DNA from: Galbibacter pacificus
GTDB taxonomy: Bacteria > Bacteroidota > Bacteroidia > Flavobacteriales > Flavobacteriaceae
Direction: 5' to 3'
NCBI RefSeq assembly: GCF_029603165.1
Contig: NZ_JAQSVC010000001.1
Coordinates: forward strand, 186,001 to 250,000
Length of the DNA stretch: 64,000 nucleotides
Shown piece by piece: positions 2 through 32,586 of the stretch. The notes beneath the pieces were generated by a model. The model made no database searches, was not told where the DNA came from, and was given only the letters and a program-made list of their open reading frames with translations. How positions within the stretch are numbered: position 1 is the first letter of the stretch; each line of letters starts with the position of its first letter. The translations under genes were made by a program, and so were the position numbers.

Positions 2-43
2 ATGTTTGATACATTGAAGAACAAAGGGGAAAAGAAAGAGTAA
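2..43 (+). CDS. C-terminal tail of an unidentified protein (partial)
   Basis: An open frame enters from the left edge and ends at a TAA at 41-43, giving a short Lys/Glu-rich tail (…KGEKKE). A transcription terminator follows at 69-98, as expected for a real gene end. The piece is too short to name. The frame is chosen because the other two forward frames hit stops at once. Confidence 0.45.
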   Translation: MFDTLKNKGEKKE

Positions 44-26788: not shown

Positions 26789-28249
26789 ATGAAAGAAGTA
26801 ATTGTTATAGGCTCCGGATTTTCGTCCCTATCGGTGGCATGTTACCTGCAAAAGGCGGGGAAACAGGTAACCGTACTGGAAAAAAACGAGCAAATTGGTG
26901 GAAGGGCTTCTATTCTGGAGGCGGAAGGCTTTAAATTTGATATGGGACCTTCTTGGTATTGGATGCCCGATATATTTGAACGGTTTTTCAATGATTTTGG
27001 CAAAAAGATATCCGATTATTACGAACTCATAAAGCTCTCACCGGCTTACAATGTGTTTTTTGAAGGAGGAAATTGTATTGAAATAGCCAATGATCTTAAA
27101 AAAATATGCAAGACCTTTGATGAAATAGACCCGGGAAGCGGGGGAAAACTCAGTAAATTTATAAATCGGGCCAAGGAAAATTATAAAATTGCAATGGAAG
27201 ATCTGGTATACCGGCCCGGGATTTCTATAACGGAGTTAATTACCCCAAAAACAATGATAAGGCTAAATTTATTTGTTTCCAGTATAACTTCAGAAGTAAA
27301 AAAAGTAACAAAAAACCGGTATTTACAAAGCATTTTGGAATTTCCGGTATTGTTTTTAGGAGCAAAACCCGAAAATACCCCCGCCTTTTATAATTTTATG
27401 AACTATGCCGACTTTGGAGGCGGTACCTGGTACCCAAAACACGGCATGAATGGTGTGGTTATAGGAATGGAAACGCTGGCGGCTTCGTTGGGAGTGGTTT
27501 TTAAAACCAATGAAGAAGTGAAAAGTATATATGTCGAAAATAGAAAGGTTACCAAAGTGATTACCCAAAAGAGGGAATATGCGGCAGGGATTGTTGTTTC
27601 GGGGGCAGATTATTTCCATACAGAAAAACTGCTTGCTGAAGAATTTCGTAATTACAATGCGGCTTATTGGGAAAAGAAAACATTTGCCCCTTCTGCATTT
27701 TTGTATTACGTAGGTTTTAAAGGGGGTGTTGAGAGCGTTGGGCATCATAATCTTTTTTTTGATACCGACTTTAAAAAGCATGCCGAAGCTATTTATGATA
27801 AGAAAACCTTGCCGGACAATCCATTGTTTTATGCAAATTTTCCATCAATTACCGATGAAACATTGGCACCAGATGGAATGTCGACCGCCTTTTTTTTAAT
27901 TCCAATAGCCGTAGACATAAACGATACAAAGGAAATGCGCGATAGGTACTTTAACATCATCATGGAGCGGTTTGAAAAGTGTACGGGTGAGCGTATTGCC
28001 AATAGAATCGTGTATAAAAAGGCGTTTGGGGTAAACGATTTTAAATCGAGGTACAATTCGTACAAGGGAAATGCCTATGGACTGGCCAATACCTTGAGGC
28101 AAACATCGGTGCTTAGGCCGGGCATAAGAAACAAAAAAGTAAAGAACCTTTTTTATACCGGGCAGTTAACGATCCCCGGACCTGGAGTGCCACCGGCATT
28201 GATTTCAGGGAAAATAGTGAGCGATTATATAGTAAAACACAAAATATGA
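26789..28249 (+). CDS. crtI: Phytoene desaturase CrtI
   Basis: CrtI converts phytoene into lycopene by successive FAD-dependent desaturations at the membrane. The 486-residue protein begins with the dinucleotide-binding motif VIGSGFSSLSVACYL (residues 5-19), then VLEKNEQIGGRA and FDMGPSWY, typical of bacterial CrtI. The C-terminal flavin signature is LFYTGQLTIPGPGVPPALISGK. It is first of four genes crtI-crtB-crtZ-crtY with overlapping ends, a complete path from GGPP to zeaxanthin except GGPP synthase. Confidence 0.96.
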   Translation: MKEVIVIGSGFSSLSVACYLQKAGKQVTVLEKNEQIGGRASILEAEGFKFDMGPSWYWMPDIFERFFNDFGKKISDYYELIKLSPAYNVFFEGGNCIEIANDLKKICKTFDEIDPGSGGKLSKFINRAKENYKIAMEDLVYRPGISITELITPKTMIRLNLFVSSITSEVKKVTKNRYLQSILEFPVLFLGAKPENTPAFYNFMNYADFGGGTWYPKHGMNGVVIGMETLAASLGVVFKTNEEVKSIYVENRKVTKVITQKREYAAGIVVSGADYFHTEKLLAEEFRNYNAAYWEKKTFAPSAFLYYVGFKGGVESVGHHNLFFDTDFKKHAEAIYDKKTLPDNPLFYANFPSITDETLAPDGMSTAFFLIPIAVDINDTKEMRDRYFNIIMERFEKCTGERIANRIVYKKAFGVNDFKSRYNSYKGNAYGLANTLRQTSVLRPGIRNKKVKNLFYTGQLTIPGPGVPPALISGKIVSDYIVKHKI

Positions 28250-29097
28250 CAACCAACTACAAACTATATCAAAAGGTATGCTTGGAAATAAGTAGAATGG
28301 TAACCAAAAAGTACAGCACGTCGTTCTCGCGGTCAATAATGTTCCTTACACCCGATATTCGCGAAAACATATATAATATTTATGGTTTTGTGCGCTTTGC
28401 CGATGAAATAGTAGATACTTTTCACGAACACGACAGAAGGAAGCTGTTGGACCGGTTTGTTGCCGATTACCATTTGGCCTTAAACGAAGGAATATCGATG
28501 AACCCTGTTTTAAATGCATTTTGCAATACCCAGAAAACTTGCAAGATACCGCAGGATTTGGTAGATACCTTTGTAGAATCTATGTACATGGACTTGGGGG
28601 AGATGAAAAACCTAAACTCCCAGGCGTATAAAAAATATATTTATGGGTCGGCAGAAGTGGTTGGTTTAATGTGCTTAAATGTTTTTTTAAAAGGTAATGA
28701 AGCAGATTACAATAAATTAAAGCCGTATGCGCAAAGTTTCGGCGCCGCACTGCAAAAAGTCAATTTTTTAAGGGACATCAGTTCAGATTTTCATCAACTA
28801 AACAGGACTTACTTTCCAAATGTTGACTTTACGCAGTTTACGCTTGAAGATAAAATGCAAATTGAAGAAGACATTAAAAAAGACTTTCAGGAAGCAATAA
28901 AAGGAATTAAAAAGTTGCCACTTTCCTCCCGTTTTGCTGTGTATCTTGCGTATCTTTATTACTCAAACCTATTTAATAAAATAAAAAAAACCGACTCTGA
29001 ACAGCTTTTTAAAAAGCGAATACGGGTAAACAACTTCGAAAAGGCGTTGTTGTTTTCTAAAATATATATGCACAAGCGTTTAAATATAGAAATATGA
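28246..29097 (+). CDS. crtB: Phytoene synthase CrtB
   Basis: CrtB joins two GGPP molecules to form phytoene. The 283-residue protein carries both Asp-rich motifs: FADEIVDTF near residue 50 and NFLRDISSDF near 178, the second being the usual NxxRDxxxD. The start overlaps the crtI stop by four bases (ATGA), a sign of translational coupling. Squalene-synthase relatives are excluded by the crt context. Confidence 0.95.
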   Translation: MTTNYKLYQKVCLEISRMVTKKYSTSFSRSIMFLTPDIRENIYNIYGFVRFADEIVDTFHEHDRRKLLDRFVADYHLALNEGISMNPVLNAFCNTQKTCKIPQDLVDTFVESMYMDLGEMKNLNSQAYKKYIYGSAEVVGLMCLNVFLKGNEADYNKLKPYAQSFGAALQKVNFLRDISSDFHQLNRTYFPNVDFTQFTLEDKMQIEEDIKKDFQEAIKGIKKLPLSSRFAVYLAYLYYSNLFNKIKKTDSEQLFKKRIRVNNFEKALLFSKIYMHKRLNIEI

Positions 29098-29543
29098 ACC
29101 TTTTAGTATATCCATTGGTTACCGTTTTGGTTTTCTGTTTTATGGAAGCAGTTACATGGTGTACGCACAAGTATGTCATGCATGGGTTTATGTGGTATTT
29201 TCACGAAGACCATCACCGGCCAGGATACCCGCACGTTTTTGAGAAGAACGATTTCTTTTTTGTAATTTTTGCCACTCCCAGCATCTTACTTTTTTATTTT
29301 GGAGCCTATAATGGATTAAACGTACTTTTTTTTATCGGCCTTGGAATCCTTATGTATGGAATTGCTTATTTCTTGGTCCACGATGTGCTTATACATCAGC
29401 GGTTTAAATGGTTTAAAAACACAAAAAATAAATACTTAAGGGGTTTGAGGAAAGCACATAAAATACACCATAAGCATTTAGGGAAAGAGTTTGGAGAATG
29501 TTTTGGCATGTTGTATGTTCCAAGAAAATACTTTAAAATATAG
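29094..29543 (+). CDS. crtZ: Beta-carotene hydroxylase CrtZ
   Basis: CrtZ hydroxylates beta-carotene at both rings to zeaxanthin. The 149-residue integral membrane protein has the di-iron His motifs: HKYVMHG (about 16-22), HEDHH (about 31-35), HDVLIHQ (about 99) and HKIHHKH (about 121). It overlaps crtB by four bases, and its stop shares a G with the next GTG start. Confidence 0.94.
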   Translation: MNLLVYPLVTVLVFCFMEAVTWCTHKYVMHGFMWYFHEDHHRPGYPHVFEKNDFFFVIFATPSILLFYFGAYNGLNVLFFIGLGILMYGIAYFLVHDVLIHQRFKWFKNTKNKYLRGLRKAHKIHHKHLGKEFGECFGMLYVPRKYFKI

Positions 29544-30250
29544 TGGAAAGGTTTTTATATTTACTATTGGTGACTTTAAGCTTTGTAGTGCCTTTTTTAT
29601 ACAGTTTTGAAAAAAAACGCCTCCATTTTATTCAATATTGGAAACCTTATTTTTTGTCAATAATTATTGCGGGATTGTTTTTTATAGCATGGGACATTTA
29701 TTTTACCATTGCAAAAGTATGGAGCTTTAACGACACCTATTTAACTGGACTGACTATTTTTTACCTTCCCGTGGAGGAATGGCTTTTCTTTCTGCTCATT
29801 CCCTATGCAAGCAATTTTATACATTATGCCCTGTTGCATTTTTTCCCATCTCCACGCTTGGGCAAAGTATCTGCACGGTATGTTGCATATTCCCTGTTTG
29901 TTATGGCATTGACAATAACCGTTTTTAATAGCGAAAAAATATATACTTTTTGCAGCTTTGGTCTTTTTGCCCTGTTAATGTTACTTCAAATAATATATAA
30001 ATTTCATAGTTTCAATCGTTATATACTTTCCTTTCTTGTTATTTTAATTCCTTTTTTCATAGTCAATTCCTGGTTGACCGGGTTATTTACAGAAACGCCC
30101 ATTGTTTATTACAATAATGAAGAAAATCTGGGGATTCGTTTGGGGGCTATTCCTATAGAAGACATTTTTTATTGTTTTTCATTATTGTACACAAGTATTC
30201 TTCTGTTTGAATTTTTTAAAAGAAGTCCTATCAAACAAAAAAGAGCATAG
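29543..30250 (+). CDS. crtY: Lycopene beta-cyclase, CrtYcd type
   Basis: A 235-residue protein with about seven membrane helices, composed of two fused lycopene-cyclase domains of the CrtYc/CrtYd type: LPVEEWLFFLLIPYASNFIHY in the first half and IPIEDIFYCFSLLYTSILLFE in the second. Both hold the P-x-E-(E/D) motif of the family. It would cyclise lycopene to beta-carotene, the substrate of CrtZ. Start is GTG at 29543 within TAGTG, one base overlapping the crtZ stop. It is unrelated to flavoprotein CrtY of proteobacteria. Confidence 0.92.
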   Translation: MERFLYLLLVTLSFVVPFLYSFEKKRLHFIQYWKPYFLSIIIAGLFFIAWDIYFTIAKVWSFNDTYLTGLTIFYLPVEEWLFFLLIPYASNFIHYALLHFFPSPRLGKVSARYVAYSLFVMALTITVFNSEKIYTFCSFGLFALLMLLQIIYKFHSFNRYILSFLVILIPFFIVNSWLTGLFTETPIVYYNNEENLGIRLGAIPIEDIFYCFSLLYTSILLFEFFKRSPIKQKRA

Positions 30251-30463
30251 ATACTGTTACTTTCCGTAAAAAATCTTTCAGTTGAAGCAGTACAAACTGT
30301 AAGTTGCTGTTATTTAGCTTAATATAAAATATTTTTTGAAGAATAATTCAATATTATGTTTGAAAACATCTGTAAATTTAGAGGAAATACAGTGAAAAAA
30401 TTTTAAAAACAAAGATTGAAAAAGCCCGAATTTTACAAAAAGGAGATTTTTATTAAAAAAGGT

Positions 30464-30492
30464 GTGACTTTTTTATCCTTTGTGTGTCTAAA
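30464..30492 (+). promoter_or_regulatory. Candidate ECF sigma promoter before the sigma-factor gene
   Basis: GTGAC (30464-30468), 14 bases, then TGTGTCTAAA (30483-30492), preceded by an A run. The same arrangement with the same spacing stands at 32185-32213 in front of the 47-residue membrane protein, suggesting one sigma factor reads both. It lies 43 bases before the ATG, consistent with self-activation by the encoded sigma factor. Confidence 0.6.
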
Positions 30493-30535
30493 GGGGTGAC
30501 ACCGGTTTTTTTACCGTAAATTTCTTACAATTTTG

Positions 30536-31105
30536 ATGAAATTTGAGAGTGATAAAAATAGCAGTGACGAACAACTTGTAGAGAAGATTGTTGCGACCAA
30601 CGACACCCATCTCTTTGCTGTTTTGTATGACAGGTACTCAGACCTTGTATATAGTAAATGCCTGAGTTTTACCCGTGACAAAGAAGAAGCCCAAGATATT
30701 ACACACGATATTTTTATACACTTATTTTTAAAACTTAGGACCTTTAAAGGAAAATCTAAATTTTCTACATGGCTGTATTCCTTTACATATAATTTTTGTG
30801 TGAATTACATACAGCGCAATAAAAAGAAGCGAAATGAAAAGTTTGTCTTAACAGACGAAATCCCCCCAAATACCGATGAATACGATGAAATTGATGATAC
30901 GCAGATTTACCAAATGAAATCTGAAAATTTATCAAAAGCATTAAAGTTGATAGACCCGAGCGATAAAATGATATTGATGATGAAGTACCAAGACGACTTG
31001 ACAATAAAAGAAATTCAGGAAGTGCTCGAATTAGGGAGCAGCGCTACCAAGATGCGCTTGAACAGGGCAAAGGGTCGTTTAATAGAAATATACAATACTT
31101 TGTAA
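30536..31105 (+). CDS. ECF-type RNA polymerase sigma factor
   Basis: A 189-residue sigma-70 family protein with region 2 (about 25-95: LYDRYSDLVYSKCLSF, AQDITHDIFIHLF, FSTWLYSFTYNFCVNYIQR) and region 4 (about 130-185: LIDPSDKMILMMKYQDDLTI and KMRLNRAKGRL). The frame includes a TTG just before, but ATG 30536 is preferred. No anti-sigma gene with a membrane domain of the usual kind follows; the next gene is a 57-residue protein and then an MscS channel, all in one transcript. This suggests control linked to membrane or osmotic state, by inference. Confidence 0.9.
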   Translation: MKFESDKNSSDEQLVEKIVATNDTHLFAVLYDRYSDLVYSKCLSFTRDKEEAQDITHDIFIHLFLKLRTFKGKSKFSTWLYSFTYNFCVNYIQRNKKKRNEKFVLTDEIPPNTDEYDEIDDTQIYQMKSENLSKALKLIDPSDKMILMMKYQDDLTIKEIQEVLELGSSATKMRLNRAKGRLIEIYNTL

Positions 31106-31107
31106 TT

Positions 31108-31281
31108 ATGGATAATCCGTTCAAGAAAATAATACAAAACGAAAAATTACCCGATTCTATCAAAGAAAAGGTAATGGAAGATGTAAACATGATAAAATTG
31201 ACTTTGGATGTGGCGGATTTATTTATGATTAAATATCCCGATACAATTAACGATATATTAAACTTGAGAAACGATGAATAA
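31108..31281 (+). CDS. Small acidic/basic protein between sigma factor and channel (57 residues)
   Basis: The ATG is two bases after the sigma-factor stop, and the 57-codon frame overlaps the next gene by eight bases (31274-31281). The product has no membrane segment: it opens MDNPFKKIIQNEKLPDSIKE and continues into a helical part, VMEDVNMIKLTLDVADLFMI. The tight packing and protein-like composition argue that it is real. It could be a cytosolic regulator of the sigma factor; I do not recognise a named family, although similar small proteins seem to follow ECF genes in other Flavobacteria. Confidence 0.72.
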   Translation: MDNPFKKIIQNEKLPDSIKEKVMEDVNMIKLTLDVADLFMIKYPDTINDILNLRNDE

Positions 31282-32107
31282 ACAGTTACTTGCAAAACTA
31301 GATTTCGATATTTTACGCGATTTATTTAATACTATCATTGAAGCATTGCCAAAAATACTGGGCGGCATAGTTTATATAGTAGCATGTTGGTTAATCCTTA
31401 AATTGGTGCTCTTTATTGCAAAAAAATCGTTGAGGTTCACAAAAATAGACCAGCTGCTTACCAATGAAAGCGAGAAAAGCAACCTGTTTAGTACTTCTGT
31501 AAAAATACAGCCAACCAAAATTATATTGGGTTTTATTAAATGGTTTTTAATACTCATATTCATAATAGTGGGGGCCGATATTTTGGGCTTGTCCATAGTC
31601 TCTAACGAAGTAGGCAAACTTGTACAGTACCTACCTAGAATTTTTAGCGCGGTACTAATATTCTTTGTAGGGGCATACGGTGCCATGCTATTGAAAAAAA
31701 CAATTCAATCTACATTAAAGGCATTCGATCTAAATGGCTCCAAAGCCATTAGTATGATTGTTTTTTACCTAGTTTTTATTTTTGTAACCATAATAGCACT
31801 CAACCAGGCTGGAATAGATACAGAGATAATTACCAACAACTTGTTTTTAATTATCGGTGGCTTCCTTGCCGCTTTGGCCATAGCTTTGGGCTTGGGCTCG
31901 CGGGAGGTGGTTTTAAGGCTTTTGTTGGGTTACTACTCAAGAAAAAACTTCCCGATAGGCAAACGCATTAAAGTTGAAAACGAAAATATTGAGGGTACCA
32001 TACTATCGGTAGATAATATCTGTATGGTAATAAAAACAGACGGGCAAAAGAAAATAGTAGTGCCTATAAAACAAATTGCAAATAAAAAAGTAGAAATTTT
32101 AGACTAA
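31274..32107 (+). CDS. MscS-like channel with conserved TM-helix repeats
   Basis: A 277-residue membrane protein with about five hydrophobic segments. The N-terminal IIEALPKILGGIVYIVACWL and central YLPRIFSAVLIFFVGAYGAM match the conserved TM-helix repeat of CmpX-type channels. The final part (ALGLGSREVVLRLLLGYYSR, then RIKVENENIEGTILSVDN) is a short MscS beta domain lacking the long C-terminal cage. It overlaps the small gene upstream by eight bases. It probably acts in membrane-tension response under the ECF sigma factor. Confidence 0.85.
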   Translation: MNKQLLAKLDFDILRDLFNTIIEALPKILGGIVYIVACWLILKLVLFIAKKSLRFTKIDQLLTNESEKSNLFSTSVKIQPTKIILGFIKWFLILIFIIVGADILGLSIVSNEVGKLVQYLPRIFSAVLIFFVGAYGAMLLKKTIQSTLKAFDLNGSKAISMIVFYLVFIFVTIIALNQAGIDTEIITNNLFLIIGGFLAALAIALGLGSREVVLRLLLGYYSRKNFPIGKRIKVENENIEGTILSVDNICMVIKTDGQKKIVVPIKQIANKKVEILD

Positions 32108-32184
32108 TTTTAATTTTATAAAATACTGATTATTAGTATTTTGTAATTATTTTTAATAAAATTGAAAAATAATTACAAAAAAGA

Positions 32185-32213
32185 GTGACCTATTAAGAAT
32201 ATATGTGTCTAAA
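32185..32213 (+). promoter_or_regulatory. Candidate ECF sigma promoter before the 47-residue protein
   Basis: GTGAC (32185-32189), 14 bases, TGTGTCTAAA (32204-32213): the same two boxes and spacing as at 30464-30492, each preceded by AAAAAAG. It is 54 bases before the ATG at 32268. Confidence 0.6.
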
Positions 32214-32267: not shown

Positions 32268-32411
32268 ATGGAACTTTTATTTTTGCTAGTACAACTTTTG
32301 ATATTGCCAGGTTTAATTTTTTTGGGTTTAATTAGTTGGTTTGATTACAAAAGATCAAAAGAAGATTATATGAAATTGAAAAATGCGGTTGCGCAGCAAA
32401 AAGTCCATTAA
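32268..32411 (+). CDS. Single-pass small membrane protein (47 residues)
   Basis: The frame ATG 32268 to TAA 32411 encodes 47 residues: one membrane helix (about 2-25, LLFLLVQLLILPGLIFLGLI) then a charged tail (DYKRSKEDYMKLKNAVAQQK). It has its own candidate ECF promoter and is followed by strong terminators, so it looks like a true small gene and a member of the sigma factor's regulon. The function is unknown; stress-induced membrane peptides of this shape occur widely. Confidence 0.7.
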   Translation: MELLFLLVQLLILPGLIFLGLISWFDYKRSKEDYMKLKNAVAQQKVH

Positions 32412-32427
32412 TATGTCAAACTCCAAG

Positions 32428-32452
32428 AAAAAAGTATGCAAATACTTTTTTT
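32428..32452 (+). terminator. Terminator hairpin
   Basis: AAAAAAGTAT (32428-32437) pairs with ATACTTTTTT (32442-32451), continuing into Ts. First of two terminators behind the small membrane protein gene. Confidence 0.55.
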
Positions 32453-32465
32453 GAGACATTAAAAG

Positions 32466-32495
32466 CAGAGCTTAGAAATAAGCTCTGTTTTTTTT
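32466..32495 (+). terminator. Rho-independent terminator
   Basis: CAGAGCTTA (32466-32474), GAAA loop, TAAGCTCTG (32479-32487), then eight Ts. Perfect stem with a stable tetraloop. Confidence 0.9.
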
Positions 32496-32586
32496 GATTA
32501 AAAACAACCGACCATATAATTGGCGGTTTTCTTTTATAACATTCGATTATTTTGACAAAGTCATAATAATCGAACTCAGATTTATA

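Follow-up and report, generated by a model that had tools for sequence, protein, structure and literature searches.

The window, meaning the whole 64,000-nucleotide stretch of Galbibacter pacificus DNA analyzed here, carries on its plus strand an operon in the order sigma factor gene, gene for a 57-amino-acid (57-aa) protein, and MscS-type channel gene. The first-pass annotation had linked the sigma factor with the channel, both of which are present, and had missed the 57-aa gene between them (31108..31281). The sigma factor gene (30539..31105, with its ATG at 30539) encodes regions 2 and 4 only, which identifies the product as an ECF (group 4) sigma factor. Both regions scored above the Pfam cut-offs (Sigma70_r2, 1.2e-14; Sigma70_r4_2, 3.2e-7), and NCBIfam model TIGR02937 matched at 93.9 bits against a cut-off of 42.9. 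The top NCBIfam model was SigX (NF007222) at 99.6 bits, well short of the 194 bits set as its curated equivalog threshold. When the genome was scanned with the SigX model, 18 places matched, and this sigma factor ranked first (98.6 versus 73.8 for the next). A plasmid search with the sigma protein returned 23 records, none of them from Pseudomonas; the best was from Spirosoma at 37% identity.

The channel gene (31274..32107, plus strand) encodes 277 aa. The conserved MscS transmembrane helix was recognized by Pfam (MS_channel_1st_1, 3.4e-11, 43.3 bits, cut-off 22), the beta-domain scored somewhat below threshold (MS_channel_2nd, 17.3 bits, cut-off 20.2), and the Pfam scan gave no MS_channel_3rd match, the protein ending after the beta-domain. 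Its structural model (pLDDT 83) matched MscS (5aji) in Foldseek with an E value of 4.6e-8 and a probability of 1.00, at a TM score of only 0.25. Downstream of the channel, also on the plus strand, are a gene for a 47-aa membrane protein (32268..32411), with a single helix followed by the basic tail DYKRSKEDYMKL, and the intrinsic terminator of this unit (32461..32496), a hairpin with a T-run (-20.2 kcal/mol for both stretches folded, 32440-32500 and 32455-32500). Directly 5' of the operon on the same strand is a carotenoid cluster (26789-30250), with some 210 bp between its end and the sigma promoter. It includes a CrtI/CrtD-type phytoene desaturase, a phytoene synthase-like protein, a lycopene cyclase, and a 149-aa open reading frame (ORF) that looks like a hydroxylase and has no family match.

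Two identical promoter-like arrangements had been reported upstream of the sigma factor gene and of the 47-aa gene, and both are found in the sequence. P1 (30464..30492, plus strand) consists of GTGAC in a -35-like position, 15 bp, and GTGTCTAAA in a -10-like position, the site reading GTGACTTTTTTATCCTTTGTGTGTCTAAA from 30464. P2 (32185..32213, plus strand) reads GTGACCTATTAAGAATATATGTGTCTAAA from 32185, matches the pattern exactly, and is kept in a named relative (L224). Each is directly preceded by a run of six A (30455..30460 and 32177..32182, plus strand). In the whole genome (4.04 Mb), GTGAC-n14-TGTGTCTAAA has just two occurrences, one 5' of each of these two genes. With looser spacing, GTGACN{12,16}TGTGTCTA matched twice in the window, compared with a shuffled mean of 0.00, and these 2 matches were also the only ones in the whole genome, where the reversed control gave 0. 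Neither exact site stands before the carotenoid cluster, and a regulatory link to that cluster was rejected.

The short core GTGACN{14,16}GTGTC is not in itself above control in this genome, since it has 4 sites in 4.04 Mb and its reversed control also has 4. What is distinctive is thus the longer form of the motif and the positions of its sites. The four short-core sites are P1, P2, one within a ksgA-like reading frame, which is coding sequence and probably a chance match, and one 20 nt 5' of a 53-aa ORF. A TWAA pattern at fixed spacing with up to one mismatch gave 4 sites compared with 1 control: P1, P2, the ksgA site, and one 53 nt 5' of a large exported-looking ORF, which cannot be told from chance. 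When three mismatches were allowed, sites were fewer than controls (367 versus 503), so weak sites are uninformative.

To describe the motif in relatives, we used the generalized form GTGACYWN{12,14}GTGTCHWAA. Across 299 genomes of the family it had 365 sites, compared with 23 for reversed controls, and in 29 genomes picked for having the 57-aa gene it had 146 sites, compared with 2 for controls. Together, the whole-genome and 299-genome controls rule out a chance repeat as the origin of the long pattern; the random placement that would have spoken against the annotation was not seen for it. These comparisons support the view that the two elements would behave as ECF promoters. For closer inspection we took 138 sites: 137 of the 146, to which a site in a thirtieth genome (G058) was added. 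This set excludes P2, the site in the ksgA-like frame, and seven sites at sigma promoters. Spacing in this set was 15 bp in 110 sites, 14 bp in 15, and 16 bp in 13. In the 110 aligned sites, A is preferred at positions -1 to -9 before GTGAC, with T preferred immediately 5' of it; the other conserved positions in the alignment table are mostly set by the search pattern. Three of the 138 sites fall inside reading frames (L099 in the forward direction, L169 and L197 in the reverse).

The operon itself is conserved in relatives. Among the best 80 named loci of those listed by the scan, the small gene lies directly 3' of the sigma factor gene in 77 and a channel lies beside the sigma factor in 67; the 13 without a channel ORF comprise 9 Polaribacter loci and 4 whose sequence ends soon after the sigma factor (L228, L272, L298, and L302). 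The motif GTGAC-13..15-GTGTC stands 5' of the sigma factor gene without mismatch in 63 of these 80 loci and with at most one mismatch in 70. Self-activation of the sigma factor through P1, which the first-pass annotation had said P1 would allow, is strongly indicated because the motif is kept at this position. In the nearest named relative, another Galbibacter (L224), the motif has two mismatches at the sigma factor gene and is perfect at the tiny gene. The position of P1 before the operon suggests that the sigma factor would also control the channel. In a search across the phylum, ORFs judged without a family scan gave the order sigma, small gene, channel in 12 of 13 loci (L211-L223); L223 has one extra gene between the small gene and the channel. 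Of the six loci that lie outside the family, not one has the GTGAC motif 5' of its sigma factor gene, and the promoter sequence may therefore be family-specific.

Motif and operon also occur together at the level of genomes. The motif was present in 88 of the 97 genomes with a match to the 57-aa profile compared with 15 of the 202 without one (Fisher odds ratio of 122; P = 1e-48, a value that overstates significance, as the genomes are related), and 331 of the 365 sites are in those 97 genomes, leaving 34 in the other 202. Nine of the 97 have the small gene and no motif, and G004 among these is itself a weak partial match. We ran a sigma-profile search on the 15 motif-bearing genomes that lack the small gene, on G030, and on four others. 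A more distant sigma factor was found in G256, G123, G268, and G046 (250, 227, 173, and 165 bits, respectively), and the other 11 of the 15 had no such sigma factor at an E value of 1e-30. In G256, which belongs to the same genus as the window, the gene after the distant sigma factor encodes a shorter small protein of the NPFKK type, and the locus (L311) has two copies of the motif, one of them with a mismatch. One copy stands before the NPFKK-type protein and the other before a gene that, read without a family scan, is serine-hydrolase-like. Because this distant sigma factor adjoins motif copies, related or paralogous sigma factors may share the promoter. The motif has 5 sites in G046 and 11 in G268, genomes of about 2 Mb in which the 57-aa profile found no match (the loci of G123, G268, and G046 are L312-L314). 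G030, also of the same genus, has neither such a sigma factor (E value of 1e-30) nor the motif; it is the sole negative from the genus, since G256 has its more distant sigma factor.

These data bear on who uses the promoter. It could be a real promoter that serves another ECF sigma factor or several of them, with the operon as one target and an indirect link between this sigma factor and the motif. The 18 matches to the SigX model in the genome would supply candidates, the motif is found in 15 of the 202 genomes that lack the 57-aa family, 11 of these 15 having no close sigma match, and G256 pairs motif copies with a more distant sigma factor. Against this, the motif co-occurs strongly with the operon and is kept at the sigma factor's own promoter, and G030 lacks the close sigma match and the motif alike. 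We consider such an arrangement quite improbable. The pairing of promoter and operon is supported by these genome comparisons, and we retain the reading in which the sigma factor would use P1 and P2 itself.

The 47-aa protein encoded behind P2 has no Pfam or NCBIfam family, and it looks like a real, conserved gene: in the Galbibacter relative L224, a 49-aa counterpart stands behind the same promoter, and the two proteins have IFLGLISW-x-DY in common. In other relatives, small proteins (37-64 aa) with one helix and a basic tail are encoded just 3' of the channel, behind a motif that in some cases has up to two mismatches. Among the best 80 named loci, 37 have the motif with at most one mismatch within 600 nt 3' of the channel; under a strict ORF rule, 9 of these 37 have a tiny protein there. 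For the Tenacibaculum loci with a motif after the channel (about 140-315 nt away), the rule gave no tiny ORF. The 53-aa ORF in the G. pacificus genome also encodes a tiny membrane protein (L210, 2773-2981, near G000:C15:666772), and the motif 20 nt 5' of it is a weaker copy. The tiny proteins may have a role in the regulon.

Some promoters appear to precede no protein-coding gene. By rule, 34 of the 138 sites had no ORF, and a terminator-like hairpin lay within 180 nt of 25 of these 34, compared with 7 of the 104 others (P = 5e-14); with a nine-unit array removed, the count was 16 of 25 (P = 3e-9). The rule misfiled some sites as ORF-less, among them L064 (an ORF with a TTG start), L143 (a 32-aa ORF), and L169 (a site in a reverse-strand ORF). 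An earlier, hand-picked group had the hairpin in 24 of 28 cases, compared with 4 of 140 shuffled controls. The array is in G113, where a stretch of 1.3 kb holds nine copies of the promoter, each with a terminator behind it and no ORF by rule; its tandem units (L190, G113:C1:2108628-2109956) are about 100-220 bp apart, and some are nearly identical. It is likely an array of small RNAs. Another ORF-less unit is common to five genomes of five genera, with conservation mainly in the promoter and a G-rich terminator stem (GGGGGA in 4 of 5). Rfam at gathering thresholds, run on 15 RNA-unit loci, gave no match to the units and detected only a tRNA. These ORF-less units are likely to be transcribed as RNAs.

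Relatives carry up to 13 motif sites each, and their targets indicate what the sigma factor might do. Target groups among the 138 sites were assigned from N-termini and blastn clusters, with Pfam run on 20 representatives. DUF2853 proteins stand behind the motif in 10 genomes, M48 peptidases in 6 genomes for one kind and 3 for another, dodecin in 4, and full-length MscS, a LysM protein, DUF3078, DUF2807, and an OmpA-type protein (grouped by N-termini, with Pfam on one) in 3 each; MscL, aquaporin, and TerB follow it in 1 genome each. Two further targets, in 6 and 3 genomes, we take to be rpoD and mtaB solely from their recognized N-termini. A 142-aa protein without a known family follows the motif in 5 genomes (L139, L090, L102, L134, and L172, one of them with 140 aa); L139, the one that was run, had no Pfam match. 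The identity of these targets is supported by sequence comparison. In the G. pacificus genome itself, none of the relatives' target families was found behind the motif, so its regulon looks small: besides the operon it would comprise the 47-aa gene and perhaps the one for the 53-aa protein. The earlier description of a compact regulon thus fits this genome under the patterns used and does not extend to relatives with up to 13 sites.

The proposed link to membrane stress gains from the targets in relatives, which include channel, aquaporin, peptidase, and OmpA-type genes. DUF2853, dodecin, rpoD, and mtaB are not osmotic genes and count against a regulon centered on membrane tension. The set could instead be a general envelope-stress regulon of the sigma-E kind, with the channel as a protective product rather than a sensor, which would accommodate the M48 peptidase, OmpA-type, and exported-protein targets as well as the likely RNA units. 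MscL, MscS, and aquaporin among the targets fit that account poorly, as does an operon that includes one channel in 67 of the best 80 named loci, and we regard it as rather less likely than not. Membrane tension remains our preferred signal.

The gene for the 57-aa protein (31108..31281, plus strand) belongs to a conserved family. The protein, a putative anti-sigma factor or other sigma partner, had no predicted membrane segment and no Pfam or NCBIfam match. An AlphaFold2 model (pLDDT 84, pTM 0.49) has helices at residues 4-8, 16-42, and 44-56, and the helices are conserved across the family. Comparison of the family profile with solved structures gave no usable match, and a fold search with the model gave one match, at an E value of 8.7, and no known fold. 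The protein was found in 88 of the 299 family genomes with a single-sequence search and in 97 with a profile; in a sample of the phylum, the profile matched 14 of 395 genomes, 6 of them outside the family. A sigma factor gene followed by its anti-sigma gene is the usual order, and the family's place directly after the sigma factor in 77 of the best 80 named loci, along with its conserved helices, argues for an anti-sigma role. The protein might alternatively be a positive cofactor or a partner of the channel, with the sigma factor controlled mainly by its own synthesis. It is very short, it has no detectable likeness to known anti-sigma sequences or folds, and its presumed Pseudomonas counterpart in kind, CfrX, is itself described as merely a putative anti-sigma factor in the part of PMC8999054 available. 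We judge this alternative unlikely, and continue with an anti-sigma role for the 57-aa protein.

Taken together, the window probably encodes an ECF sigma module that regulates itself, operates in the manner of SigX-CfrX-CmpX, and governs a membrane-tension regulon. The sigma factor would recognize GTGAC-15-GTGTCTWAA at its own P1 and at P2 of the tiny protein, and the 57-aa helical protein would most likely hold it back in the cytoplasm. The MscS-like channel would most likely couple membrane tension to release of the sigma factor, which, once freed, would amplify the operon and turn on membrane-protective genes. The operon, the promoter, their pairing, and the identity of the targets are supported by sequence comparison. 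The original observation is right and stronger than the first-pass annotation claimed, and its interpretation is right in outline and incomplete in parts. More tentatively, and with slightly less than even confidence, we propose that the Flavobacteriaceae have a mechanosensing ECF sigma factor that acts as a tension regulator, with a regulon of MscL and MscS valves, aquaporin, the housekeeping sigma gene, tiny one-helix proteins, and short terminator-ended RNAs, the last including, in one genome, the nine-unit tandem array with a promoter for each unit. A counterpart with a sharp promoter and a 57-aa partner in 97 of 299 family genomes would make the mechanosensing idea testable in nonpathogens, and the module gives leads on tiny membrane proteins, as well as on likely small RNAs, that lack annotation. 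Among the matches listed in our literature search, no title dealt with a module of this sort from Bacteroidota.

Three known systems invite comparison. Enteric sigma-E is an ECF sigma factor that drives envelope proteins and short noncoding RNAs. The module resembles it in its envelope-protein targets and likely short RNAs and differs in having a channel and the 57-aa protein, rather than a membrane-spanning anti-sigma factor, beside the sigma factor. Within the same bacterial family, the accessible portion of a study of Flavobacterium psychrophilum describes an ECF promoter motif, SM6, found by transcript mapping (PMC9723704). Both are ECF-type promoter sets; as that portion presents it, the SM6 motif has a CGT box in its -10 element and is linked to T9SS genes, whereas the module described here has a -10 element of GTGTCTWAA and targets comprising channels, peptidases, tiny proteins, and likely RNAs.

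The closest likeness is to Pseudomonas aeruginosa SigX, an ECF102 sigma factor that the available part of PMC8999054 presents as the sole ECF sigma factor studied under a mechanosensing complex, with CfrX as its soluble and CmpX as its channel component. According to the parts of the sources at hand, SigX activates the small gene and the channel and has a share in transcribing its own gene (PMC7641640, PMC8999054, PMC3832394), cfrX-cmpX transcription depends on SigX in cold shock, and membrane stiffening by valinomycin induces sigX (both PMC7641640); overexpression of cmpX leaves sigX and cfrX expression unchanged (PMC10965496), a result that speaks against a simple control by the channel. The statement that members and promoter match no well-described ECF group accordingly does not hold for the parts: both systems have an ECF sigma factor, a small putative anti-sigma protein, and an MscS-type channel, and SigX is the best NCBIfam model, if far below its cut-off. 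Membership in SigX is not claimed, since the family cut-off is not reached, and CfrX is compared by kind of part. The small protein has 57 aa in the window and 84 in P. aeruginosa, and no oprF porin gene was found next to the sigma factor in the window, where the neighbors are the carotenoid cluster and the 47-aa gene. Gene order also differs, being sigma, small gene, channel in the window and, as far as the sources cover it, cfrX-cmpX upstream of sigX in P. aeruginosa. The SigX consensus promoter is described in the accessible part of PMC7641640 as not precisely defined, whereas the module described here appears to have a sharp one, GTGAC-15-GTGTCTWAA.
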